DNA from: Ignavibacteria bacterium | GTDB lineage: Bacteria > Bacteroidota > Ignavibacteria > Ch128b | Direction: 5' to 3' | NCBI GenBank assembly: GCA_013177855.1 | Contig: JABLYA010000001.1 | Location: 791,231 to 855,230 of the forward strand | Length of the DNA: 64,000 nt | Shown: positions 6,214 to 64,000 of the stretch, piece by piece | Layout of the letters: every line of letters starts with the position of its first letter | Numbering within the stretch: the stretch's first letter is position 1 | Program-made: the position numbers and the translations under genes | The notes under the pieces: model-generated | Seen by the model: the letters and a program-made list of their open reading frames with translations, nothing else | Database searches by the model: none | Told to the model about the DNA's origin: nothing

Positions 6214-8117
6214 TGAATAAAAATTTATTGTATTCGATTTCGATCATTTTCGTTTTCGTTGTTTATTTAATAACGCTTGCCCCAGGAATTGTTCAAATTG
6301 ACTCGGGTGAACTTGCGGCAGTTGCCTCAACTCTTGGAATTGCTCATCCGACAGGGTATCCTCTATTTACAATTATTGGTTATTTATTCACAAAGCTTGT
6401 TTTCTTTACATCAAAAATTTTTGCATTAAACTTATTATCAGCTATTTACACTTTAGTCGGATTTTACTTTATCATAAAGATCAATCAAATTGTTTTAAAT
6501 CAGTTAAAAACAAAAACTTCGGGCGGGAAAAAATCGAAAAAGAAATTAAGCACTTCTGTTGAATTTTCTAAAGATCAAATTTTAGTTATCGCTGTTACCG
6601 GCTCTTTAACAATTGCATTCAGCAAAACATTCTGGCTTCAATCTACTTCTGTGGAAGTTTACTCACTTCACATCCTTTTGATTAGTTCTTCAATCTATCT
6701 TTTTCTGAAGGCATTTTTCAACGAGAATGATTCCAAATCAAAGGAAGTCAAAACAGTTACAATTGACTGGTTAAAATTTGCTTTTGTTTTTGGTCTTTCG
6801 TTTACAAATCATATGACCAGCATTTTATTAATACCTGGATTTACCTATCTCTATTTTTCAAAATTTGGTTTTAATAAGTCTGCATTCAAAAATATTCTTA
6901 TTATGTTAATCCCTTTTCTTTTTGCATTATCAATCTATATTTATCTTCCTCTTTCTGCTGCTAAAAATCCAGCGATAAACTGGGGAAATCCTGTCACATG
7001 GGAAAATTTTAAAAGACACATAATGGGCTGGCAATATCAAAGCTGGATTTTTTCATCAACTGAATCTGCTTCAAAACAATTCAAATACTTTACCCAGATT
7101 TTTCCAATTGAATTCGCTTATATCGGATTGATTTTAATTCTACTTGGATTAATAGAACTTTCAAGATCAAATAAGAAAGTTTTGACTTTTTATCTCGTTT
7201 TGTTTTTCACCTGTCTGCTTTACTCTATTAACTACGACATCAATGATATCGATTCTTACTTTTTACTTTCTTTTATTTCAGCTGGATTAATTGCCACTGC
7301 TGGTTACTTTTACATTGCTAATATTTTTCTTAAAGAAGGGAAAAATAAAATTTATGCTTTTCTAATCATTCCGCTTGTGATTCTCGCCATTAACTTTGAA
7401 AAGGTAAATCAGAATGACAATACACAATTTCAGGAGTATTCAGTTTCAGTTTTAGAATCAGCCGACAAAAATTCTATAATTATTTCATATCTATGGGATT
7501 TTCTGATTTCACCTTCTTATTACTTACAATTTGTTGAGAACAAACGGAAAGATGTTTCAATAATTGATAAAGAACTTGTGAGAAGGAGCTGGTATTTCAA
7601 TCAATTAAAAACTAATAATTATTTGATTTATGAAAGATCAAAGGAATTAATCGAAGGATTTTTGCCTGAACTCGCAAAATTTGAGCGAAACGAAAATTAC
7701 AATTCACAAATTCTTGAAAAATATTACAGAGAAATTATACAAAGTTTTATAATTAGAAATATTAACGATCGCAGTGTTTACTTAACACCTGAGATGGTTT
7801 CAGTAGAGTTAAAAAATGGCTGGCTTGTTTTACCAGATTCGTTAAGAGTAATTCCAGATTTGTTTCTCTTTAAAGTCGTGAAAGATACTGTTTACCATCC
7901 TCTTAATCTTAAAGATTACTCTATCAACTTCAAAGAAGATAAAAGTTATTATACAGAGACATTAAAGAATTTAATTGTTACTGCTCACATTAATCGAGCA
8001 TTCTATGAAATACAGTTTGGAAAGAAGGAAGAAGCGAAGAAGTTGATCGAAAAAGTTTTGAAGATAAATCCTCAGATACAATTACCAGAACAATTGCTCT
8101 CTATTCTAAACGAATGA
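6213..8117 (+). CDS. DUF2723 polytopic membrane protein (GT-C-like glycosyltransferase fold)
   Basis: A 634-residue protein starting with a membrane segment and the family hallmark LAPGIVQIDSGELAAVASTLGIAHPTGYPLF at residues about 22-53 (shown here only as a position guide: acidic pair D-S-G-E near 30-33, then HPTGYP near 45-50). This is the DUF2723 signature, common in Bacteroidetes-like bacteria and related to GT-C protein O-glycosyltransferases. About ten or more hydrophobic segments span residues 1-390, followed by a soluble C-terminal part ending in a TPR-like helix pair (residues about 590-630). It overlaps glnE by one base (TGATG), suggesting coupled translation. A role in lipid-linked sugar transfer to surface proteins is inferred from the fold; substrate unknown. 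Confidence 0.75.
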   Translation: MNKNLLYSISIIFVFVVYLITLAPGIVQIDSGELAAVASTLGIAHPTGYPLFTIIGYLFTKLVFFTSKIFALNLLSAIYTLVGFYFIIKINQIVLNQLKTKTSGGKKSKKKLSTSVEFSKDQILVIAVTGSLTIAFSKTFWLQSTSVEVYSLHILLISSSIYLFLKAFFNENDSKSKEVKTVTIDWLKFAFVFGLSFTNHMTSILLIPGFTYLYFSKFGFNKSAFKNILIMLIPFLFALSIYIYLPLSAAKNPAINWGNPVTWENFKRHIMGWQYQSWIFSSTESASKQFKYFTQIFPIEFAYIGLILILLGLIELSRSNKKVLTFYLVLFFTCLLYSINYDINDIDSYFLLSFISAGLIATAGYFYIANIFLKEGKNKIYAFLIIPLVILAINFEKVNQNDNTQFQEYSVSVLESADKNSIIISYLWDFLISPSYYLQFVENKRKDVSIIDKELVRRSWYFNQLKTNNYLIYERSKELIEGFLPELAKFERNENYNSQILEKYYREIIQSFIIRNINDRSVYLTPEMVSVELKNGWLVLPDSLRVIPDLFLFKVVKDTVYHPLNLKDYSINFKEDKSYYTETLKNLIVTAHINRAFYEIQFGKKEEAKKLIEKVLKINPQIQLPEQLLSILNE

Positions 8118-8197
8118 AATTATAGGGAGCTTAATTTAAATTTTTGATTATTAAAATAAACTTGAAGAAAAAAACTTTGATTTTTTTTACTGTCAGA

Positions 8198-9286
8198 TCA
8201 CTTCAAATATTTTAATAAATCATTTATTTCTTCTTTAGTTAGCTCGTCAGCTGTTTTGAAAGTTTTGAGAGTAATATCTACCTGTTGGATTAAAGATTTC
8301 TTTTCGTAACGAGGCGAGAAGACTGATCCATCTAACATATACAGACGATTCTTTTTAGTATCGAGGAAGAGATAATTAACAAAAGGTCCACCCATACTGT
8401 AATCATTCATTCTCCACAAGCCTTGAGTGAATATTGCATACTTACCATTGAAATTAATTTCAGTTTGGTTCAGATATTCTTTTGCAATTTCAACATAGGC
8501 TTTGTCATCTGTTGTTCTTAAGAATTTTTTTGTAATTCGGTTTCTTATTTCAATCACGCTGTCTTTGTTCAACCATTTCGCATCAACAGAATCGATCCAG
8601 TGAATGAAAATCCATCTTTCCATATCTGAATTGGGTGAGCGTCGCAGCCAGACAAATTTATCTTCCTTATTGTTAATTGCTTCGAGAAAATCAGCCTGAA
8701 TATAAAGTTTCCAGCCATATTCTTTCAGATATTTAGCTTCCAGATCCTTCTTTTCATAGGTTGGATTGTAAAGATTTTTCATTACCCGTTCATCAGATGC
8801 TGATTGGAAGTAATACAATAAATTATCTTTATTCTTTAATGCTTTTATTCTTAACTCCTCAATAGTGTTTGAAACTAAAATTACCAAGACTTGATTTTTT
8901 GCCCATACATCTTTTTTCTTGATTACAAATTCTTCACCATTTTTAATCAAATTCAGAACAGAACTGTCTAAAATTGCTTTCACATATTTTGTGACTTCAT
9001 TATCTCTATCAAGAGTTGTAACAATCAAGAGGTTCTTTCTATTTTGATATTTCTTAAAATCTGAGAAATCCTTTCGAGTAAGATAAAACAATTGCTCAGG
9101 TTGCGGTGTGATTATTTCCTTTTCAAAAATTGCTGAAAGAAAATCATAATACTCATTCCATTCAGTTGAATCAGCGAAAACAATTATCTCATCTTCTTTT
9201 CCAAATGCTGGTTTTAAATTACTTTGACAGCCAGTGTTAACAATCAAAAAAATAAATAGTGGAATTAACAAGTATAAATTTTTCAT
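8198..9286 (-). CDS. DUF4837 family lipoprotein
   Basis: The protein has a lipoprotein signal: a hydrophobic stretch ending in VNTGC with the lipidated cysteine at residue 20. I start it at the ATG at 9286 (MKNLYLL) rather than an in-frame ATG at 9310, because only the shorter form gives a normal signal peptide. After the signal comes a segment of the type GKxDEIIVFADSxEW, then PQPEQLFYLTRKDF, characteristic of DUF4837, a family of Bacteroidetes and Chlorobi lipoproteins of unknown function. Length is about 362 residues. It begins 4 bases after the SEC59-like gene ends and is the last gene of the greA-to-ftsH operon. Converges with the DUF2723 gene; no convincing terminator hairpin lies in the 80-base gap. 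Confidence 0.75.
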   Translation of the reverse strand: MKNLYLLIPLFIFLIVNTGCQSNLKPAFGKEDEIIVFADSTEWNEYYDFLSAIFEKEIITPQPEQLFYLTRKDFSDFKKYQNRKNLLIVTTLDRDNEVTKYVKAILDSSVLNLIKNGEEFVIKKKDVWAKNQVLVILVSNTIEELRIKALKNKDNLLYYFQSASDERVMKNLYNPTYEKKDLEAKYLKEYGWKLYIQADFLEAINNKEDKFVWLRRSPNSDMERWIFIHWIDSVDAKWLNKDSVIEIRNRITKKFLRTTDDKAYVEIAKEYLNQTEINFNGKYAIFTQGLWRMNDYSMGGPFVNYLFLDTKKNRLYMLDGSVFSPRYEKKSLIQQVDITLKTFKTADELTKEEINDLLKYLK

Positions 9287-52864: not shown

Positions 52865-54232
52865 GTGGAAAGAGGAAAAATACTTATCTGTGATGATGAT
52901 CAAGTTTTGGCTCAAATTCTTTCAGATGAATTACGAGCAGAAAATTTCAATACAGTCATTACCAATTCTGGTAAAGATGCAATTGAAGAACTGAAAATCA
53001 ATTATTATGATGTCCTTTTGCTTGATCTTAATTTGCCTGATATAAAAGGCTCTGAAGTTCTTAAATTTTCAACAGCTAATTTCCCCTTTACTCAAGTGAT
53101 TATGTTAACCGGCACTTCTGATATTTCTGATGCCGTAGAATGTATGAAACTTGGTGCCTATGATTTTATTACTAAACCTTATGATTTCAACGAACTTCTC
53201 CAGGTAATTTTTAAAGCAATTGAAAAGAAAAATCTTATTACAAATAACATTGTTCTTTCAAAAGAATTAAATCAATTACTTGGTTTTGAAATAATTGGAG
53301 AAAGTAAATTATTCAAAGAATTACTTGCGCTGGCATCAAGAGCTGCTCAATCTGATTCCCCAATCTTAATTCAAGGTGAAACAGGAACAGGAAAAGAAGT
53401 TTTAGCTAAATACATTCATTCAATAAGTCCGAGAAGTTCAAAACCAATTGTTACTTTAAACTGCGCATCGCTCCCAGACACATTGTTTGAAAGCGAATTG
53501 TTTGGTCATGAGAAAGGTTCATTTACCGACGCCAAGCAAACAAAACCCGGACTCGTAGAAATTGCAAATGAAGGTTCTTTATTCTTAGATGAAATTGGTG
53601 AGCTCTCTCTTATCATACAACCCAAATTACTTCGTTTCCTTGAAACTGGAGAATTCAGACGAGTTGGCGGATTAAACAATCGTAAATCAAATGTAAGATT
53701 AATTGCTGCGACAAATAAAAACCTCGTCAACGAAGTTAAAGAAAAAAGATTTCGGGAAGATTTGCTTTTCAGATTAAATGTAATTCCTTTAACAATCCCG
53801 CCATTAAGAAAAAGGAAAGAAGATATCATTCCACTCGCTGAATATTTTCTCAAACAGAAAAATAAAACGAGAAAACCAAAAATTCTTTCAGATGAAGCAA
53901 AAGAATTTTTACTGAATTATAACTTCCCTGGAAATGTTAGAGAGCTTGAACATTTAATCGAAAGAAGTTTAATCTTTTGTGATGGCGAAGTAATTTATCC
54001 AAAGCATTTTAATTTAATGATGTCACCGATCTATTCAGTTTCGGAAGTTGAAGAAGAAATAAATAGAACAACCGGCAAACCATTTCACGAACTTTCGGCT
54101 GAAGAGCTCGAGAAAATACATATTAAATCTGTTCTTGATGCAAATAACTGGAATAGGGAGCAAAGTGCGAGAGTTTTGGGAATTAGTCTAAAAACTCTTT
54201 ACACAAAAATTAAAAAGTATAACCTTCAATGA
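52865..54232 (+). CDS. NtrC-family response regulator (sigma-54 activator, PilR-like position)
   Basis: A 455-residue protein with a REC domain (1-118; acidic pocket C-D-D-D near 9-12, phosphoacceptor Asp54 in LLLDLNLPD, Lys in TKPYD), an AAA+ domain with Walker A GETGTGKE (about 172-179) and Walker B GSLFLDEIGE, and a Fis-type helix-turn-helix (about 412-453). The sigma-54 contact loop reads GSFTDA (about 218-223) where GAFTGA is canonical. The start codon is GTG. It overlaps the hybrid kinase by 4 bases (ATGA), and the pair converges on the pilus operon, recalling PilS-PilR. Confidence 0.92.
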   Translation: MERGKILICDDDQVLAQILSDELRAENFNTVITNSGKDAIEELKINYYDVLLLDLNLPDIKGSEVLKFSTANFPFTQVIMLTGTSDISDAVECMKLGAYDFITKPYDFNELLQVIFKAIEKKNLITNNIVLSKELNQLLGFEIIGESKLFKELLALASRAAQSDSPILIQGETGTGKEVLAKYIHSISPRSSKPIVTLNCASLPDTLFESELFGHEKGSFTDAKQTKPGLVEIANEGSLFLDEIGELSLIIQPKLLRFLETGEFRRVGGLNNRKSNVRLIAATNKNLVNEVKEKRFREDLLFRLNVIPLTIPPLRKRKEDIIPLAEYFLKQKNKTRKPKILSDEAKEFLLNYNFPGNVRELEHLIERSLIFCDGEVIYPKHFNLMMSPIYSVSEVEEEINRTTGKPFHELSAEELEKIHIKSVLDANNWNREQSARVLGISLKTLYTKIKKYNLQ

Positions 54233-56616
54233 TCGATAAATTCTTAAACAGAGCTGGTAAAGAATTTATTGAACTATTAACTAATTCGGGCTACGGGCTC
54301 TGCATAACTGATGAAAATTTAAAATTGATCTGGGCTAATAAAAATTTTGAAAGCTGGTTTGAAACTGGCACAGATAAATATCTTTTTGAAATAATCGAAG
54401 AAAAAGAAACAAAAGAAAAATCAGAGATTTTTCAAGCGATACAAAAAAGCGATAAAATTAGAATTGAAATAAAAAATCCATCAACCAAACGATGGTTTAT
54501 CGTAAGTTCCATTTCAACACAAATTGAGAGTGATAAAAATTTCTATCTTTTTCTTCTTGACGATACGACAGAGAAAAAAACAGTATTTGAAAATTACATT
54601 TCCCAACTTGAACTTCTTGATAATGTCGAGGACGGAATTTTTTCGACCGATTTTAATAACAGAGTGACTTACTGGAATAAAGGTGCAGAAAAAATTTATG
54701 GTTATTCAGCTAATGAAGTAATCGGGAAAGTTATTAATCAAGATTTTATTCTATACGACCCAATTGATATAGAAACTCAAATCCAGATAACACAAGAATT
54801 AGAAAAATATCGAACTTATTATTTCAAACGAAGGGAGTACAGAAAGGATCAGATAGAAATATGGGTTGAAGGTAATGTAACTCTAATAATTGATACAGGA
54901 GATAATCCGGTCGGTTTAATCTATATTGTCAGAGATATAACTGCTAAATTAAATTCCGAAATTTTAAGTTATCTTAATGCAAATCTTCAAAAAACTTTAA
55001 GAGAAATAACAGCGAATCTGTTAAGTGATTTTTCGTTTTCAGATATAAATCTTCAATTAACTAAAAAATGCAAAGAGCTAACTGAGAGTGAAATTTGTGC
55101 AATATTTAAAATTAATGAACATAGAAGCGAGATAATTGAGCTAATTTGCGAAAAAGAATTAAATCAAGAACAATTGGACCAGTTAATTGAGTGTTCTTTT
55201 TCAATTTTAAGCTGGCTTGAATTAAATAGAAAGAGTCTTGTGAGTTTTAATGAATCGTATCCTGAAATAATTGGAAAGCTGAGGAATATCCTTAACCTAG
55301 ATCAATTCATTATTTCTCCTGTCATTATAAAAAATGAAATCCAGTATTTTCTTCTGATTGGGGCTAATAAATTTAATCTACAAAATTATAAAGTAGAAAT
55401 ATTGAATTCGTTTGCTTCTCATTATTCATTTATTGTCAGTTATTTTGAAAAGAAATTACTTCAAGAAACTCTTGAGGAAAAACTCAAGCAAACACAAAAG
55501 TATGAGCTCACCAGTAATTTAATCAGCGGCATAGTTCATGATTTCAAAAATTTATTGTACGGTTTGAAAGTTTCAAATGACTTAATTAAACAAAAATATT
55601 CTAGTGAAATTCCTAAAAATGTTATAGAAGAGATTGATACACTTCTAAACCGTGGTCTCGAATTATCAAAAAGTCTACTTGAAATAGGGAAACCACTCAA
55701 ACCAGTAAAAACTCACTTTAAGTTAGTTAAGTTACTTGATGAAGTTTATAACTTAGCTGTAAAGATTTGCCCATCCAATATTTCAATCAAAAAATATTAT
55801 AAACCTGATCTTCCTGAAATTTATGCGGATTACACTCAACTCCATCAAGTATTTATGAATTTAGTTATCAACGCACGTGATGCAATGCCCAATGGCGGTG
55901 AATTATCAATTATTGCAGATGAAATTTCAATCACTGAAAAAGATTATCTGCAACAATCTAAATTAAAACCTGGCAACTATCTTATCATATCTTTTTCAGA
56001 TACGGGACATGGAATTCCAAAAAAATATCTTGATAAAATTTTCGAACCGTATTTTACGACCAAAGATCAACAGAAAGGAACTGGCTTGGGTCTTTTTATA
56101 TCCCAAAACATAATCACGAAACACAACGGTTTGATAACAGTTGAAAGTGAAATAGGGAAAGGCACAACATTTAAAATTTACTTGCCCTTTACTAAAACCG
56201 AAATTCAAGAACAAAAGAAAATAATTCAAACAAAAGTGAAATCAAATCCAACAATCCTTATCGTTGATGACGAAGATTCGATTCGTAATTTGCTAGCCGA
56301 AATGCTAAGCCTGCAGAATTTTCAAGTTCTTGACGCTTCATCAGGTGAAGCAGCTAAAGATATTTTTCTTAAAAATCAGAATATCATAGATCTTGTTATT
56401 CTGGATTTTCATTTAAAAGATATGACAGGAGAAGAAGTTCTCAGATTTATTCGGGAAAGAGATAAAGAAGTCCCTGTCTTCATTGCCAGCGGTATAATTG
56501 ATAATGAATTAACCGAGCGACTTAATGAATTATTGGCAGATAAAATTATTGAAAAGCCTTACGAATTTGATGCGTTGATAGAAAGCATTAATAATTACAT
56601 AAAAATTTCATCTTAA
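54229..56616 (+). CDS. Hybrid histidine kinase with PAS domains and C-terminal receiver
   Basis: A 795-residue cytoplasmic-looking sensor: PAS (about 10-110), a second PAS with PAC (about 125-240; FSTDFNNRVTYWNKGAEKIYGYSANEVIGK), a GAF-like region (about 250-410), the H-box SGIVHDFKNLLYG (His near 436), an ATPase domain (about 535-657; NLVINARDAMPNGGEL, DTGHGIPKKYLDKIFEPYFTTK, GTGLGLFISQ) and a C-terminal REC domain (675-795; Asp near 725 in LVILDFHLKD, Lys in EKPYEF). No membrane segment is seen, so it probably reads an internal signal. Its stop overlaps that of the convergent gene in a shared TTAA. Confidence 0.92.
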   Translation: MIDKFLNRAGKEFIELLTNSGYGLCITDENLKLIWANKNFESWFETGTDKYLFEIIEEKETKEKSEIFQAIQKSDKIRIEIKNPSTKRWFIVSSISTQIESDKNFYLFLLDDTTEKKTVFENYISQLELLDNVEDGIFSTDFNNRVTYWNKGAEKIYGYSANEVIGKVINQDFILYDPIDIETQIQITQELEKYRTYYFKRREYRKDQIEIWVEGNVTLIIDTGDNPVGLIYIVRDITAKLNSEILSYLNANLQKTLREITANLLSDFSFSDINLQLTKKCKELTESEICAIFKINEHRSEIIELICEKELNQEQLDQLIECSFSILSWLELNRKSLVSFNESYPEIIGKLRNILNLDQFIISPVIIKNEIQYFLLIGANKFNLQNYKVEILNSFASHYSFIVSYFEKKLLQETLEEKLKQTQKYELTSNLISGIVHDFKNLLYGLKVSNDLIKQKYSSEIPKNVIEEIDTLLNRGLELSKSLLEIGKPLKPVKTHFKLVKLLDEVYNLAVKICPSNISIKKYYKPDLPEIYADYTQLHQVFMNLVINARDAMPNGGELSIIADEISITEKDYLQQSKLKPGNYLIISFSDTGHGIPKKYLDKIFEPYFTTKDQQKGTGLGLFISQNIITKHNGLITVESEIGKGTTFKIYLPFTKTEIQEQKKIIQTKVKSNPTILIVDDEDSIRNLLAEMLSLQNFQVLDASSGEAAKDIFLKNQNIIDLVILDFHLKDMTGEEVLRFIRERDKEVPVFIASGIIDNELTERLNELLADKIIEKPYEFDALIESINNYIKISS

Positions 56617-57317
56617 TCTTCATGCAATTCTTTTTTTAGCTCATCGACACTGACCATTTTAACATCTTTCTCTTTGTTGTACTCACCAATTTGCTCCGAT
56701 TGTTTTATTGCGTTTAACTTATTTAGTACCGTAGTAATTTTTTTAATTCCCTCTTCAAGATAGTTAATCTTTTCACTTAAAAATTTTTTATCAATGTTTT
56801 CTTTGTTTAATTCTCTTTTAATTGCATTTATTGCTAAAGACATTATTGTTAAAGGTTGCTTAATTTCATGATTTGCTGTTAAAACGGTTGCTTCAAAAAT
56901 CTGGTATTTCTCCTGTTGAATGGTTTTTCTTTTCATCTCAGCGAATCGAAGAGCGGAGTTTATACGGGCAATCAGTTCAATTTTATCAAATGGTTTTTTG
57001 ATATAATCAAATGCTCCAACTTTCAGTCCTTCTTCCACATCTCTTGCATCAACTTTGGCTGTTACAAGAATAATAGGGATATCTTTTGTTTGTTCATCAT
57101 TAGTTAAAATTTTGCAGACTTCGTAACCATCCATACCAGGCATCATAATATCGAGGAGGATTAAATCGGGCTTTTCAGTTTTTGCTTTTTCAATTCCTTC
57201 AGGTCCCGAAAAGGCACTGATCACAAAAAAATTTCCTTGCTGAAGTCGTGATTGTAGATAATAGACATTATCAGGTCTATCGTCAATTACAAGAATTTTG
57301 TAAGTATCTTTTACCAT
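56613..57317 (-). CDS. Receiver domain fused to a histidine-kinase dimerisation domain, without ATPase
   Basis: A 234-residue protein. The REC domain (about 5-122) has the D-D pair at 12-13, phosphoacceptor Asp56 (LLLDIMMP) and Lys in KKPFD. After a short coiled linker comes a DHp-like helical hairpin: FEATVLTANHEIKQPLTIMSLAINAIKREL, with His150 followed by E-x-x-x-P-L as in an H-box, then LEEGIKKITTVLNKL near 185-200. No N, G1 or G2 boxes follow, so it cannot autophosphorylate alone. It might pass phosphate or dimerise with a kinase. It starts 7 bases after the REC-only gene of the pilus operon. Confidence 0.85.
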   Translation of the reverse strand: MVKDTYKILVIDDRPDNVYYLQSRLQQGNFFVISAFSGPEGIEKAKTEKPDLILLDIMMPGMDGYEVCKILTNDEQTKDIPIILVTAKVDARDVEEGLKVGAFDYIKKPFDKIELIARINSALRFAEMKRKTIQQEKYQIFEATVLTANHEIKQPLTIMSLAINAIKRELNKENIDKKFLSEKINYLEEGIKKITTVLNKLNAIKQSEQIGEYNKEKDVKMVSVDELKKELHED

Positions 57318-57324
57318 ATTTCAC

Positions 57325-57693
57325 TCAAGAATGTAAAACTTTTTGAATAGTGATTAACAATTCATCTAAATCATAAGGTTTGGAAAGAAAATCATCGGCA
57401 CCTAATTTTTTAGCCATTACAGCATTTTCCACATCTGCATAAGCAGTCATAACAATTATTTTTCCAGGATAATTTTTTGCTCTTAATTCTTTTAAGATGT
57501 GAAAACCATCAACTTGGGGCATTTTTAAATCAAGTAAAATTAAATCATAAAATTCATTTTGCAAACGATCTAATGCCTCTGAACTATCATTCATTACTTC
57601 AACTTCGTATCCAACAGACGAAAGTTCCTCTCTTAGAATTTTTGTAAGAGAGACATCATCATCAATTATCAACACTGATTCAAGAGTTGCCAC
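57325..57693 (-). CDS. Single-domain response regulator (REC only)
   Basis: A 122-residue stand-alone receiver (CheY-like): acidic triad D-D-D at 11-13, phosphoacceptor Asp55 (LILLDLKMPQ), Thr in MTAYAD and Lys in SKPYDLDEL. No output domain. It lies 12 bases after the secretin gene and 7 before the REC-DHp gene. Likely an intermediate in a phosphorelay or a protein-interaction regulator of pilus function. Confidence 0.93.
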   Translation of the reverse strand: MATLESVLIIDDDVSLTKILREELSSVGYEVEVMNDSSEALDRLQNEFYDLILLDLKMPQVDGFHILKELRAKNYPGKIIVMTAYADVENAVMAKKLGADDFLSKPYDLDELLITIQKVLHS

Positions 57694-57705: not shown

Positions 57706-58938
57706 TCATTTTTCTTCTACCGGGTTAATTTGATAGATTTTTATATCCTTCTGATACTGTTCCCTGGTTTTCTCTATCAAATTTTCACTCTTCCTGCGGG
57801 AAGTAAACCTTTCTTTCAAAGTTGGTACTAATTTAGCTTTAAGAACAATAATTAATTCTTTTTTAGTATAAGTCTTTTTATCAAATCCTGTGAGATACCT
57901 GATGCCTAAAACCCACCAGGGCAAATCTTTTAATATTGGAATACCACTTCTTTCTATCTTTTCTTCTGTTATGTATAATCCTCCTATCACAGTTTCTTCA
58001 CCATCAACAAGCAAAACATCTGTTTTAGCTTTTGTCTTTTTTATTTCAGTTGAAAGTTGACCAGGTATTGCGTTACTCCTCTCTGCCTCTAAATCAATCA
58101 GAATGTAATTCTTTCCATCTTCTTCAAAAATATATGGAGTAACTCGAATAATTGTACCTGTGGAATAAAATCTTTCTACTGTATTACCGGCAAAATCTTT
58201 TTCTCTTGTAGAGAAATCAGCACCGACCTGTATTTCACCTCTTACTCTGTCTCTAACCGTGATTTGAGGGCTTGCAATAACTTCGCCAAGTTGATTTTGC
58301 TCAAAGAAATTAAACAAAGCAGTTGCGCGTCCAAGAAAATCACCGAACTGTCTTTCGCCATATAATCCAAGATTAAATGTTTTTGTTTGATCAGTCGTAG
58401 GTGGTGCATTTAAGTTAAAGATTGTATTATCCGTTTGTCCTAACTGACCGGCAACATCAAAATCTTTGTTATTTGTAAGAAGCCATTTCCAATTTATACC
58501 CATTTCTCTTGATTTAGCAACATCGAGTTCAAAAAACACAGCAGAAATATTTACTTCGCGGGTAGTAAGATCAACTCCTTTCATTGCATCGGGCAGAGGT
58601 GGTTTTTCTCCTTTACGCGGAAGAATTTTAATATACTCCTCAGTCTCAGTGAATTCGAGATTGTGATATTTAAGTATTAATAATAATGCTCTGTACCAAT
58701 TCATCTGTATTATATCAATTCCAATCGGATCGGTTATATCTTCACTTAAAACAATTATTTTGTTCAAATACTGTTTGCTTAATTTACTTAGCATTTGCAT
58801 TGCCTGATTAAATGGCAATGACCCTGAAAGAGAAACGAGCTCTTCTGGTGAACTTGAAAGCATTCTTTGAAATTCTCTCTGACTTTGAGCGTAACAACTC
58901 AAAGCAAAAACTAAAATAAAGAATATTAATTTTTTCAT
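57706..58938 (-). CDS. pilQ: Short PilQ/GspD-family secretin
   Basis: A 410-residue outer-membrane channel protein with a signal peptide (to about 19, CYAQS), an N0/STN-like domain (about 55-105: GIDIIQMNWYRALLLILKYHNLEF), a connecting domain (about 120-150) and the secretin domain (about 215-375) with the signature VLLVDGEETVIGGLYITEEKIERSGIPILKDLPWWVLG. PilQ of proteobacteria is 650-750 residues with AMIN domains that bind peptidoglycan; those are missing here. It overlaps the PilO-PilP gene by 4 bases and is the last structural gene of the visible pilus operon. Confidence 0.9.
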   Translation of the reverse strand: MKKLIFFILVFALSCYAQSQREFQRMLSSSPEELVSLSGSLPFNQAMQMLSKLSKQYLNKIIVLSEDITDPIGIDIIQMNWYRALLLILKYHNLEFTETEEYIKILPRKGEKPPLPDAMKGVDLTTREVNISAVFFELDVAKSREMGINWKWLLTNNKDFDVAGQLGQTDNTIFNLNAPPTTDQTKTFNLGLYGERQFGDFLGRATALFNFFEQNQLGEVIASPQITVRDRVRGEIQVGADFSTREKDFAGNTVERFYSTGTIIRVTPYIFEEDGKNYILIDLEAERSNAIPGQLSTEIKKTKAKTDVLLVDGEETVIGGLYITEEKIERSGIPILKDLPWWVLGIRYLTGFDKKTYTKKELIIVLKAKLVPTLKERFTSRRKSENLIEKTREQYQKDIKIYQINPVEEK

Positions 58939-59828
58939 TTTTTAAACTCCTTAATATTTGCGCTTTTAAGTTTCAGAGTAACTTTCTCAATGATACCTCC
59001 TTTATTAAGCAAGAATTCACATTGCTGATTGTCGTAATCAATTCTTGTAAGATAACCGAGATAAACGGGATCTCCTTCCGATAGTGTGTATGAATTTCCA
59101 TTTTTATCCATGATAAATACTGCATCAGGTATAATTGCTAATAATGTTGCCCCATCGACTTCTAACAATGCATCGTAATTTGGCGGAATATCTGGTCTTA
59201 TTAATGGGAAGAATAAATTTTTTACTGGTTTAATTTCTCTTGGTTGAATATTTTCATAATTGAGGGCAAGGTTCGTGTCGGTTGTAAAGTATGATTCAAG
59301 TTTAATTTCAAATTCAACCTGATATAAAATTTCACCCTTACCAGTTGTTAAGGTTGCATTTCGTAATTCGAGACCTTGAATTTTATAAAGTTTCTTTGAT
59401 TTTTCGAGCTGGTAGATCAAGCGAAAAACATCTTCAAATTCACCTTGACCGCTAATTACAAAATAATCAACAGAGGCTGCTCCAATAGATTCAGTTTTTT
59501 GATACTCGATATTCACTCTTGTATAACGAGAAAAATTCTTTGTAATATTTAAGATGTCATTATAAGTATCTGTGATAGAATAACGGAACGGAATTGCTTT
59601 AGCCATATTGTATAAGATCGAATCAACTTTTTCTGATTCTTTTTGAAGTGAATCGTACATTGCCGCCAAAGTTTTCACATCAAGAAATTGTTGATTCAGG
59701 TTTTCTAATTCCATTTGTTTTGCTTTAATCTGCTTTGGTTGAAAAACCAAAACATAATAACCTCCAATTCCAACAAAGAGAATAAAGAAAACAAATAGGA
59801 TAAGAGCATTTCTTGTTGTATTGCTCAT
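58935..59828 (-). CDS. PilO-PilP fusion protein (type IV pilus alignment complex)
   Basis: A 297-residue inner-membrane protein. Residues 7-30 form the membrane anchor, about 32-65 a coiled coil and about 75-180 a ferredoxin-like PilO domain. After a linker with KNLFFPLIRPD, the C-terminal part (about 210-290: ALLEVDGATLLAIIPDAVFIMDKNGNSYTLSEGDPVYLGYLTRIDYDNQQCEFLL) resembles the beta domain of PilP, which contacts the PilQ secretin. PilO and PilP are separate in Pseudomonas, Neisseria and Myxococcus. It overlaps the PilM-PilN gene by one base and pilQ by 4. The PilO half is assigned from topology and position, the PilP half from a moderate pattern match. Confidence 0.75.
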   Translation of the reverse strand: MSNTTRNALILFVFFILFVGIGGYYVLVFQPKQIKAKQMELENLNQQFLDVKTLAAMYDSLQKESEKVDSILYNMAKAIPFRYSITDTYNDILNITKNFSRYTRVNIEYQKTESIGAASVDYFVISGQGEFEDVFRLIYQLEKSKKLYKIQGLELRNATLTTGKGEILYQVEFEIKLESYFTTDTNLALNYENIQPREIKPVKNLFFPLIRPDIPPNYDALLEVDGATLLAIIPDAVFIMDKNGNSYTLSEGDPVYLGYLTRIDYDNQQCEFLLNKGGIIEKVTLKLKSANIKEFKK

Positions 59829-61360
59829 TATTGTACCCCTTTATATCCGTACTTTTCAGGGTTTAGTGTAATTTCGAAACGGTTAATTTCTCTATCACGT
59901 AATTCCTGACTGATCATACTTTTTAGTAGTGCTTTATCAAGATGATCAGAAAAATCAGGGATTGTATATTTATTAATTCCTACTCCCATTATTTTTACAC
60001 CTTCATCTGAAGCAGCAAATGAAGTTAACCAGATTCTCCTTTTATCAGGTTGATATTCTTGAATTTTCATTAGTATTTCTGTCCATCTTTCAGCGCCAAG
60101 GATTAATGTATCAATCGTTCTTTGAATTTTTAATCCAGCATCAATTCTTTGGGAAAGTTGATTCACTTTATTAACCAGTTCAGCATTTTCGGCAATCAGG
60201 AGTTGTTTACTTTGAATTTCAGTTTGAAGAACCTGGATCTTATTTTTATTTACAATATATTTTTGGGTAAAGAAAACAACTGCTATAAATATTAAAAATA
60301 AAAGCGCATATCCAACAGGACTTAATTTGAAGATCTTTTGCGCTTCAATTAAATCATACGGTAATAAATTTACTCTTGGAACTTTTGATTTATCTTTCAT
60401 CAATAAGAAAAACAATGGAGCAATGCTAAAGGCATAAACTGGAGCTTGTTCTTTTTTCTCATCAGGAAGGGCAGTTAAATCCAGCTCATCAAACTTAATG
60501 ACCTCAACTTCTGCAAGAGGGAAACTACCATAAAAAGTTAACTGCACGGTTGTTTCAACTACTTCACCAGCAAGAAAGATTTTATCGATTTCTGAAACCT
60601 GTGCAATATCCATCTCTAGATTAATTTTACTAATAATTATATCATGGAAACCTACAGTCTGAACTCCAACTCCGAGATAACTTGAGATATGTTTAATTGT
60701 TTTATTTGAGATTAAAATAATTCTACTGGAATCAATTCCTACATAAACAATCAAGTAATTTTTATCTGGTTGTATGTTATATTTATTAAGGACATAACTT
60801 GCCAGACAAATATCGCCGCCCGAAATAAATGGAATTCTGGGCATTCTCATTTTCCAGAAACGAGCGAATTTTTCAATCTGGTCGAGCACTGGATAATTTT
60901 CATTAATATATATGGTTAGATAGGTATCCTCAGAGTATTTATAGTATCTCAAATTTTTTTCGTCTATTGATGAGACTTTTGTATCAAGCCATCTATCGAT
61001 AATATATTGTTTTAATTCTTTCTCTTTAAGTTTTGGAACATTATTCAGAATTAGATAAGATATCTGAGGTTCTGTTACAACCGGGACAAAAATGATATCT
61101 TTTATATTTTTAACCTTACCACTTAAAACATTTGAGAGCATTGGCTCTTCGAGGTCTTCCCCGCTCTCTTCACCTGGTTCAAAAAGAATAGTGTCTGAGT
61201 CTACTTCTAATTCAGATTTTGGTGGTCCATAAAATTCCTGGGGACTTCCTTTTAGTCCATAGGTTACAATGTCTTCGAGTTTTAACCCCCTCGAAGTTTT
61301 AGAGACTATTGCGATTTTAGTCTCTGGACCATCAACAAAAATTCCAACATATTTTTTCAT
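59828..61360 (-). CDS. PilM-PilN fusion protein (type IV pilus alignment complex)
   Basis: A 510-residue protein. The first 310 residues form an actin-like ATPase fold of PilM type (KKYVGIFVDG near the start; LIVYVGIDSSRIILISNK near 200-217; SYLGVGVQTVGFHDIIISK near 228-246). Residues 326-331 read VNLLPY, the N-terminal motif by which PilN docks into PilM, followed by a membrane segment (about 345-367), a coiled coil (370-410) and a ferredoxin-like domain (420-500), the layout of PilN. In most bacteria these are two proteins. The gene overlaps pilT by 4 bases and the PilO-PilP gene by one. Confidence 0.82.
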   Translation of the reverse strand: MKKYVGIFVDGPETKIAIVSKTSRGLKLEDIVTYGLKGSPQEFYGPPKSELEVDSDTILFEPGEESGEDLEEPMLSNVLSGKVKNIKDIIFVPVVTEPQISYLILNNVPKLKEKELKQYIIDRWLDTKVSSIDEKNLRYYKYSEDTYLTIYINENYPVLDQIEKFARFWKMRMPRIPFISGGDICLASYVLNKYNIQPDKNYLIVYVGIDSSRIILISNKTIKHISSYLGVGVQTVGFHDIIISKINLEMDIAQVSEIDKIFLAGEVVETTVQLTFYGSFPLAEVEVIKFDELDLTALPDEKKEQAPVYAFSIAPLFFLLMKDKSKVPRVNLLPYDLIEAQKIFKLSPVGYALLFLIFIAVVFFTQKYIVNKNKIQVLQTEIQSKQLLIAENAELVNKVNQLSQRIDAGLKIQRTIDTLILGAERWTEILMKIQEYQPDKRRIWLTSFAASDEGVKIMGVGINKYTIPDFSDHLDKALLKSMISQELRDREINRFEITLNPEKYGYKGVQ

Positions 61361-62625
61361 ATTTTACTCGTAAGTAATTGTTGGATTCTTGATTTATTAT
61401 TGGCAAAAGCGATCGCTGTTTCGTAAGTAATTTTTCGTGCTTTAAATAGTCTTGCCAGATCCTGTTCCATAGTGTTCATTCCAAACTCACCACCCTGATG
61501 GATCATTTGATAAATCTCGCTTGTGTTGTTGTTTTTAATAGCCGCCTTAACTGATGGAGTTACTACAAGAACTTCTTTAGCAAGTGTTCTTTTTCCATCA
61601 ACAGTTGGGACTAATTTTTGAGAAACAATACATCTCAAAACATCTGCAAGTCGCATTCTTACTCGTTCCTGTTCCTGGACTTCAGTTTCTCCAATAATTC
61701 TATCAATTGTTTCGACAGCAGAAGATGTATGAAGAGTTGAAAATACTTTATGACCACTATCGGTAACATCAAGTGCAGCAACGATTGTTTCAGGATCTCT
61801 TAACTCACCAATAACAATTATATCGGGATCCTGTCGAAGTGCTTGTATTGTTCCTTCTTTAAAAGACAAGACATCTCTGCCTACTTCTCGATGTCTAATT
61901 AAACATCTTTTAGACTGATGAACATATTCGACGGGTGAGCTTATGATAATGATATGTGCATCACAGGTTCGATTATTTTCATCAATTATTGCATCAAGTG
62001 TTGTTGATTTTCCAGAACCCGTAATACCAGTAATCAATATCAATCCTTCTTTCATATAATTTAAATTCATCAACTGAGCTACATAAGGATGAAAGCCAAG
62101 ATCAGAGAAAGGTCTTAACTGGGAGAGAATAGCTCTACAATTTAATGACAACTCATCGAGTTCAAAATAAGCATCTGCTCTATATCGATAAATTCTTAAG
62201 TATGGTTTTGTCTCTCTAATTTCAATTGAAAAATCAAGATTTCGTTTAGAAATCAAATACTCAATTTGTTTTTCACTTAAAATATTCAGTATTAGGATAC
62301 TTGATTCTGTCGTATTAAACTCTGGTAGTTCATTTAATGGTTTTTTATTCCCATGAATTCTCATCCAGAAGCGATTCAAACTGCCAGGTCCGCCAAAGTC
62401 AAGATCAGACGCTTCCACCTTATGCATTTCAAACAATAAGCTTTCGAGAAAAGAACGCAATAATTCTCGTTGTTGATTGTTTAATCCCTCCACAAAACTT
62501 TTCAGGTAAAGGACCTTGTCAATTCCTTTGATATATTCCGGGACAAGTTTAAGTCCTTCTCCAATAATTTCTTTTACTTTTTGAGTAAGATTTTTAAAAT
62601 CATTCGATTTAATTTCTATGAACAT
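61357..62625 (-). CDS. pilT: PilT-type retraction ATPase
   Basis: A 422-residue secretion ATPase: Walker A GITGSGKSTT near 201, an Asp box and Walker B DPDIIVIGELRDPETIVAALDVTDSGH, and the His box STLHTSSAVETIDRI. The C-terminal LLTSKI and QMIHQGGEFGMNTMEQDLARLFKARKIT segments match PilT. The N-terminus has about 60 extra residues, and the usual ASDLH is ASDLD here. It retracts the pilus, so this system is a type IV pilus rather than only a type II secretion system. It lies 2 bases after pilB. Confidence 0.92.
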   Translation of the reverse strand: MFIEIKSNDFKNLTQKVKEIIGEGLKLVPEYIKGIDKVLYLKSFVEGLNNQQRELLRSFLESLLFEMHKVEASDLDFGGPGSLNRFWMRIHGNKKPLNELPEFNTTESSILILNILSEKQIEYLISKRNLDFSIEIRETKPYLRIYRYRADAYFELDELSLNCRAILSQLRPFSDLGFHPYVAQLMNLNYMKEGLILITGITGSGKSTTLDAIIDENNRTCDAHIIIISSPVEYVHQSKRCLIRHREVGRDVLSFKEGTIQALRQDPDIIVIGELRDPETIVAALDVTDSGHKVFSTLHTSSAVETIDRIIGETEVQEQERVRMRLADVLRCIVSQKLVPTVDGKRTLAKEVLVVTPSVKAAIKNNNTSEIYQMIHQGGEFGMNTMEQDLARLFKARKITYETAIAFANNKSRIQQLLTSKI

Positions 62626-62627
62626 GA

Positions 62628-64000
62628 TTAATCTTCCGTTGTTGAAGCTATTACTTCTTCAATTGTTGTAAGTCCTGCTTTTACTCTTAAGAAACCCGAC
62701 TCTCTCAAAGTCAACATTCCTTCTTTCTTTGCTTGAGCACGAATTGCTTCTTCATCTATTTCAGTACCAGATTTAACAATTAATCTTCTTATTTCTCGAC
62801 TAAAATAGAGTGCTTCGTGTATTGCCATTCTTCCTTTGTAACCAGTGTTAGAACAAGCTGGACACCCAACTGCTTCATAAAAAGTCGTTTCTTTAATATC
62901 TTTTTCACTCATTCCAGCTGCAATTGCAATATCCTTATCAAAATTTTTTGCAACACGTTTACACTTATCACAAAGTTTTCGAATTAATCTTTGAGCGACG
63001 ATAATATTAATTGCATATGCAATTAAAAATGGTTCAACGCCCATCTTAAATAATCTGGATATTGCACTAGGTGCATCATTTGTGTGTAATGTTGAAAAAG
63101 TTAAGTGACCAGTATTAGCAAGTTTAATTGCAATTTCGGCTGTCTCCTTATCTCTCATCTCTCCTACTAAAACAATATCAGGATCATGACGCAAAATAGC
63201 TCTCAATGCTTGCTCAAAATCCATCTTTGGTCCAATTTTTAATTGTCTTGCACCTCTTATGACATATTCAACTGGATCTTCAACGGTTAAAACATTTACA
63301 GTTGGATCAATCACCTGATACAACGCAGCGATCAAAGTTGTACTTTTACCAGAACCTGTTGGACCAGTTAATATCACCATTCCTTGAGGTTTACTAATTG
63401 CTTTCATAAAGAAATCAAAAGCAGGTCCATCGAAACCAATCTTTTTAATATCAGTGATAACTTTTCTATCATCAAGAATTCTTATTACGCACGATTCGAA
63501 TTTTGAACTAAGTTCAGTTCCAACCATTGGAAGAATGGAAACACGAAAACGAATAATATGCCCATCGATATTTCTTTGTATAAATCCATCCTGTGCCTTT
63601 TCTCTTTCAAATCTATCAAGTCCCCTTGCCCTGTCCTTAATAACTGATAAAACTGCTTCAGGATAAGTGTTTTCCTGAACATACCATAGAGTTAGATTTC
63701 CATCAATTCGAAAATGTATTTCTGTTTTCATTCCACTTTGAGGAACAAAATGAATATCACTTGCTCCTCTTCTAACTCCTTCCACAAGAGCCCCTTCAAC
63801 TAAATTTATCAAAGCACTTTTTTGAATTTCCGCTTCTAATAAAGATTCGTCTAAACCTTCCTCTTTCTTCGTTTCAACACTTATCTCTTCGGGGACTTCT
63901 TCAAGCATCTTAAGAAAAATATTTTCTGGCGGAAGGATTTTATTTAGCAACTCATCAAAGTCTTTTCTCCTCACAAATATCACTTCATACTTTCTAAAAC
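62628..64000 (-). CDS. pilB: PilB/GspE-type assembly ATPase, N-terminus cut by the window edge
   Basis: The visible 450-odd residues include the ASDIHF segment, Walker A GPTGSGKSTT near residue 204 from the GTG at 63983, Asp box ILRHDPDIVLVGEMRDKETAEIA, His box STLHTNDAPSAISRL and the zinc-binding tetra-cysteine module (CDKC and CPAC). The frame is open from the GTG at 63983 to the edge (codons read FRKYEV before it), and PilB is usually about 560 residues, so the gene very likely begins beyond 64000. It drives pilus assembly. First visible gene of the pilus operon. Confidence 0.93.
   Translation of the reverse strand, partial: FRKYEVIFVRRKDFDELLNKILPPENIFLKMLEEVPEEISVETKKEEGLDESLLEAEIQKSALINLVEGALVEGVRRGASDIHFVPQSGMKTEIHFRIDGNLTLWYVQENTYPEAVLSVIKDRARGLDRFEREKAQDGFIQRNIDGHIIRFRVSILPMVGTELSSKFESCVIRILDDRKVITDIKKIGFDGPAFDFFMKAISKPQGMVILTGPTGSGKSTTLIAALYQVIDPTVNVLTVEDPVEYVIRGARQLKIGPKMDFEQALRAILRHDPDIVLVGEMRDKETAEIAIKLANTGHLTFSTLHTNDAPSAISRLFKMGVEPFLIAYAINIIVAQRLIRKLCDKCKRVAKNFDKDIAIAAGMSEKDIKETTFYEAVGCPACSNTGYKGRMAIHEALYFSREIRRLIVKSGTEIDEEAIRAQAKKEGMLTLRESGFLRVKAGLTTIEEVIASTTED

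Follow-up and report, generated by a model that had tools for sequence, protein, structure and literature searches.

A natural PilM-PilN fusion in a type IV pilus gene cluster with leaderless pilin-like genes in Ignavibacteria

The window (the whole 64,000-nucleotide stretch of Ignavibacteria DNA that was analyzed) encodes a single protein in which a PilM-like part runs on into a whole PilN, and the joining of these two pilus-machine components is both genuine and ancient. It belongs to a cluster whose pilins lack leaders, in a genome in which no A24 peptidase was detected; these features, like the homology and conservation of the fusion and its place in an operon, were observed directly. Overall, we consider it highly probable that the cluster specifies a single-chain type IV pilus (T4P) stator and inner-membrane anchor with a docked NLLP segment, a PilO-P partner, and leaderless, peptidase-free pilins.

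The PilMN fusion gene and its relatives

The features of the window on which the analysis draws are as follows.

56613..57317, minus strand: response regulator with a weak HisKA-like part, kept beside the cluster
57325..57693, minus strand: response regulator, kept beside the cluster
57706..58938, minus strand: short secretin (PilQ/HofQ-like), 410 aa (Pfam Secretin, 6e-24)
58935..59828, minus strand: PilO-like protein, 297 aa (profile, Pfam, fold)
58971..59147, minus strand: extra C-terminal beta domain of the PilO-like protein, residues 228-286 (fold)
59828..61360, minus strand: PilMN fusion, 510 aa (ORF, relatives, fold, profile)
60350..60376, minus strand: RVNLLPYDL codons of the fusion (residues R329-L337), PilN anchor motif (conservation)
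61357..62625, minus strand: PilT/PilU-family ATPase, 422 aa (TIGR01420)
62628..64000, minus strand: PilB-type assembly ATPase, truncated where the window ends

Within the fusion protein, the parts are the following.

Residues about 1-320: PilM-like actin-fold part
Next: linker with the PilN anchor motif, V330-NLLP-334
Residues about 348-436: transmembrane (TM) helix and coiled coil
Residues about 443-498: PilN ferredoxin-like periplasmic domain

Read on the minus strand from 61360 to 59828, the frame opens with ATG and continues for 510 aa with zero internal stops, and the opposite (plus) strand of the same interval contains many. The PilT-family gene lying 5' of the fusion overlaps it by ATGA (61357-61360), and at 59828 the TAA of the fusion and the start codon that follows share one base (TAATG), which places translation of the fusion inside a tightly packed operon.

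No Pfam or NCBIfam model, including PilM_2 (PF11104), matched the window protein, and its two halves were identified by fold and profile. An AlphaFold2 model built with 21 relatives (mean pLDDT 82, pTM 0.59; pLDDT 63-80 around the anchor motif) consisted of an actin-like part, a linker, a single long helix, and a ferredoxin-like end. The best solved structure in Foldseek was the Pseudomonas aeruginosa PilM:PilN1-12 chimera (5eou; E = 2.4e-13); 5eou and other PilM entries were followed by Thermus thermophilus PilM-PilN (2ych; E about 4e-11) and FtsA, with the GspL cytoplasmic domain (4pht; E = 2e-6) far behind. The actin-like PilM fold is thus present. The second half carries an INLLP-type motif, a TM helix, and a ferredoxin-like domain, as in PilN, and a profile of the fusion matched Myxococcus xanthus PilN (E = 2.6e-9) from the NLLP motif (residues 331-334) onward. 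Because NLLP is the natural N terminus of PilN, the join coincides with PilN's own start. The sequence-only reading had proposed a natural fusion in which the PilM fold continues into PilN, and the intact frame together with the fold and profile evidence bears this out; the 1:1 PilM:PilN ratio that it also proposed follows trivially from a single chain.

Relatives carry the same unbroken gene. Two congeners encode a frame of identical length (510 aa; 79 to 80% identity), three genomes from its family align at 49 to 60% identity, and matches in more distant families within the class fall to 20 to 30%; other families of the class have continuous frames of 498 to 588 aa (identity 22 to 60%). Relatives named from a narrow alignment were Ignavibacteria and one "Bacteroidetes bacterium." Among 296 genomes drawn evenly from the Bacteroidota in the broad sense, 102 contained matches to the fusion, with identity down to about 21%. 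The PilM-to-PilN join was open in all matching genomes except two (G035 and G295), whose matches are fragments at contig ends; one genome (G034) has an in-frame TAG within the periplasmic part of PilN, away from the join. The PilN family model PF05137 scored above its cut-off in several relatives, and all PF05137 matches in the class lay inside frames of 487 to 542 aa, bar one 84-aa fragment.

The sequence-only reading had cautioned that a sequencing error might have joined two frames, and beyond that caution nothing was found in favor of a sequencing or assembly error. The frame is intact, and of the same length, in independent genomes at identities from 80% to about 21%, which upholds its continuity. 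Since independent relatives carry the unbroken frame, an artifact is excluded for practical purposes. Separate PilM and PilN in close relatives, which the same reading had named as counterevidence, were likewise not encountered: the pilus clusters of the relatives examined contained no separate pilM/pilN pair.

Two pointers to a separate PilM were rejected. PF11104 proved unsuitable as a detector, its matches in the class being mostly FtsA-like by frame length and position. Separate PilM-like frames of 290 to 330 aa were not accepted as a pilus PilM, the three loci inspected (L089, L093, and L095) lying outside pilus clusters. In these three (L089:8905-9822 in the first), the gene for a stand-alone PilM-like protein, about 305 aa long, is flanked by rsmD/coaD and dnaJ-type genes, with small membrane proteins encoded alongside.

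The anchor motif and the PilO-like partner

The anchor motif reads V330-N331-L332-L333-P334-Y335. The sequence-only reading was right that the motif is kept, but its numbering (326-331) was four too low. P334 is a proline in 54 of 56 nonredundant main-cluster proteins and ranks fifth in conservation among the 510 positions, while the linker just before the motif (residues 318-329) is among the least conserved of the stretches shown. The motif is therefore maintained by selection, with P334 conserved within an otherwise variable linker. Its retention suggests that the peptide still works, the simplest possibility being that it docks into PilM, either in cis or in a neighboring molecule.

A second, paralogous cluster in the same genome (L021:2319-8423; G000:C1 about 642-649 kb), with counterparts at L097-L100, encodes a PilMN-like protein, PilO, a secretin, a pilin, and minor pilins, with no PilB, PilC, or PilT nearby. 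Four of the five PilMN proteins of this cluster (that of the same genome and those of three out of four sister genomes) have lost the motif, yet the fusion stays, indicating that the contact is not strictly required once the chains are joined. This second cluster must borrow motors, and the fusion is viable without the motif at least in such a system.

In the usual view, PilM is the cytoplasmic stator at which PilB and PilT compete (PMC11656802), and the N terminus of PilN tethers PilM to the membrane (PMC5805733). In the main cluster, the NLLP segment would most likely dock into its own PilM part or that of a neighbor, like the separate PilN peptide elsewhere. The covalent tie would hold PilM permanently at the membrane and fix the PilM:PilN ratio; PilB and the PilT-type ATPase would presumably still alternate on the PilM ring, and any signaling through PilN binding would have to become an intramolecular docking switch. 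The altered exchange of partners on the ring that the sequence-only reading put forward is conjectural.

The protein encoded directly after the fusion is PilO-like by profile (M. xanthus PilO, E = 2.3e-6), by Pfam (PilO found in 6 of 23 relatives), and by fold (matches to PilO and PilP). Its extra C-terminal beta domain is conserved across the phylum and gave one fold match, to M. xanthus PilP (3jc8_Pa; probability, 1.00; E = 5e-3); two sequence searches with the domain alone found no likeness to PilP. The PF04351 genome search carries no information, since its controls gave no match. By its fold, this domain likely makes the partner a PilO-PilP fusion. The PilN part would then pair with the PilO-like partner, whose extra domain would probably take the role of PilP in reaching the secretin, and if the PilP assignment is right, just two chains, PilMN and PilO-P, would stand for the four proteins PilM, PilN, PilO, and PilP.

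The fusion is of a known kind, since such proteins have already been described in GspL/EpsL, regarded as a natural PilM-PilN fusion (PMC6325625, PMC10191384), and in Campylobacterota, where pilM and pilN are fused in most T4P clusters (PMC11870540). The Campylobacterota fusions occur in another phylum and in a pilMNOPQ gene order, whereas here the pilins are leaderless and the PilO-like protein has an extra C-terminal domain. T4aP systems with separate PilM and PilN (Pseudomonas, Thermus, and Myxococcus) have the fold, motif, operon partners, and order in common with the cluster, but their two chains bind noncovalently. The 5eou chimera likewise joins PilM to the PilN anchor peptide; however, it is engineered and limited to 12 PilN residues, whereas here the whole of PilN follows naturally. 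A P. aeruginosa PilM-PilN1-12 chimera is described in PMC5805733. The novel points are that the fusion occurs phylum-wide, that it retains the anchor motif, and that its partner has an extra domain.

Cluster make-up and the type of machine

On the minus strand, the genes run in the order PilB, PilT/PilU, PilMN, PilO-like, short secretin, and two response regulators, and the operon starts outside the window with pilin-like genes and PilC. The order pilin-PilC-PilB-PilT-PilMN-PilO-secretin is conserved both within the class and among further families of the phylum. At full length, the PilB-type ATPase has 595 aa (L022:3859-5646). The short secretin matches TIGR02515 at 3.5e-27, which is below that model's cut-off, and the PilT/PilU-family ATPase reaches 321 bits against a TIGR01420 cut-off of 319.1. 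PilB, PilC, PilT, PilMNO, and a secretin are thus found together, as in a T4aP machine. Beside the cluster, a large PAS histidine kinase lies at 54229-56616 of the window, and the two response regulators (56613-57693) are conserved with the cluster in several families. In other families of the phylum, a conserved protein of about 162 to 172 aa with the pattern (P/A)LL(L)R(N/K)F..ED..(E/D)FL, absent from the window, is encoded after PilB at the following loci.

L109:5763-6266
L110:10595-11101
L118:4437-4943
L119:10402-10908
L120:3276-3764

GspL, EpsL, and PulL likewise combine a PilM-like cytoplasmic domain, a TM helix, and a PilN-like periplasmic domain in one chain, and the protein could on this account be a GspL and the cluster a type II secretion system (T2SS), the fusion being simply GspL architecture. 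The shared domain order (PMC10191384, PMC6325625) speaks for this, as do the minor-pilin trio conserved in size and order and the grouping by Denise et al. of the so-called Bacteroidetes T2SS with T4aP. Against it, the cluster contains a PilT-family ATPase above its curated cut-off, the NLLP motif is kept here but E. coli GspL has no motif of this type (E. coli HofN has INFLP), and the fold is closer to PilM, whose matches are stronger than that to GspL by some seven orders of magnitude. GspL_C (PF12693) had no match in the genome itself, and 2 of 14 controls were positive (E. coli and Caulobacter). Membership in the T2SS/GspL group was rejected on motif, PilT-type ATPase, and fold, and we regard it as quite improbable.

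It also seems unlikely, although less so, that the cluster is a non-pilus relative such as a DNA uptake or adhesion device without a long fiber. No filament was reported in the literature searched, and the authors of the Melioribacter roseus genome paper judged the gene set incomplete (PMC3534657); however, the cluster retains a full conserved complement of major pilins (frequently from two genes), minor pilins, ATPases of the assembly and PilT types, platform, and secretin, and we favor a cluster that would produce a pilus.

Leaderless pilins and the prepilin peptidase

The pilin-like genes of the main cluster lie just outside the window.

L022:7240-7623 and 7848-8231 (G000:C1 about 857240-858230): major pilin-like genes, outside the window

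They begin MGQQQLLLIVIGVIIVGIAIVVGIN, and major pilins starting MGQQQLLLIV... have homologs in L021, L026, L028, L097-L103, and L107-L110. The five best PDB matches of a profile from 17 of these proteins were all type IV pilins (best E = 1.5e-3), and ComP_DUS matched 3 of the 17. Their N-terminal hydrophobic helix is homologous by profile to that of canonical type IV prepilins. In the profile alignment the usual Phe1 falls at residue 4, and Glu5 falls at residue 8, which is a Leu; a class III leader ending in Gly followed by Glu5 was not found in the pilins of the cluster.

All 27 major pilin genes had an in-frame stop at most 15 codons upstream of the start with no ATG, GTG, or TTG between (within three codons in 11 of the 27), leaving no room for a leader, and many had an AGGAG-like site at normal spacing. 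The minor-pilin-like genes (L022:8318-11645 and homologs) encode proteins of about 160, 190, and 340 to 375 aa, ordered by size as GspI-J-K are. These too are leaderless, except for two with a distant upstream start, and their profiles had no PDB match. No leaderless type IV pilins were described in the open-access literature searched, most subscription journals lying outside its scope.

The A24 peptidase (PF01478) was undetected in the genome itself and in four others of its family (0 of 5). It was found in 3 of 99 genomes of the class, compared to 12 of 14 controls, archaea included. Among the PilMN-positive genomes of the phylum, 11 of 102 had a PF01478 match and 91 had none detected, a count that combines the PilMN and PF01478 surveys, which have equal genome numbers and the same handles and were taken as one draw. 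With a class-derived peptidase as the query, a single further match appeared, marginal and inside an 831-aa frame. The four A24 loci in the class have as neighbors a canonical prepilin (FSxxELMV), a second PilB-type gene, or both, and hence go with another system. Canonical N-methyl prepilins (PF07963) were found in 7 of 99 class genomes. Two loci (L101, at G023:C16:54-70 kb, and L124) hold a second, canonical secretion or pilus cluster in which FTLIEL-type prepilins, an A24 peptidase, PilB, and PilC are joined by a further PilM-PilN-like fusion about 510 aa long.

The pilins might be processed after all, by a divergent or unassembled peptidase that cleaves after Gly2 (MG|QQQ...). The MG start supplies a glycine that could close a very short leader, MNTG|Q opens some of the minor pilins, several of the genomes are drafts, and MSH systems, which have no peptidase of their own, are thought to borrow one (PMC6668835). 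Known prepilin leaders, however, are 6 to 26 aa long (PMC4471445), Glu5 is lost as well, and the survey results stand against processing: the gap between controls and class genomes, the single marginal match gained with the class-derived query, and the ties of the four A24 loci to canonical prepilins and/or second PilB-type genes. We therefore think such processing improbable. Without leaders and with no detectable peptidase, the system probably inserts its pilins directly as mature proteins. Unlike canonical prepilins and their peptidase PilD, it has neither a leader nor Glu5 and, in most genomes, lacks an A24 enzyme.

Reviews place the prepilin peptidase at the core of type IV filaments (PMC4471445, PMC10191384), and no such peptidase was detected in Nanoarchaeota (PMC4471445). 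For Melioribacter roseus, a member of the Ignavibacteria, the genome paper noted pilT, pilQ, pilB, and pilC but neither pilA nor pilD (PMC3534657), an absence that leaderless pilins would explain.

Taken alone, the fusion extends a known theme to a third lineage; because the anchor peptide is kept, it also offers a test of whether PilN must leave PilM during extension and retraction. Somewhat less firmly than the reading of the cluster itself, we think it rather probable that the phylum as a whole has a pared-down, retraction-capable T4P without a prepilin peptidase, with major and minor pilins that are leaderless, lack Glu5, and enter the membrane already mature, and with PilMNOP as two chains. 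If true, it would be the first type IV filament of bacteria to dispense with prepilin processing, and leader-based pilin finders would have overlooked these systems. The peptidase and Glu5 would then be dispensable for the assembly principle, which would affect a rule that has been treated as universal.
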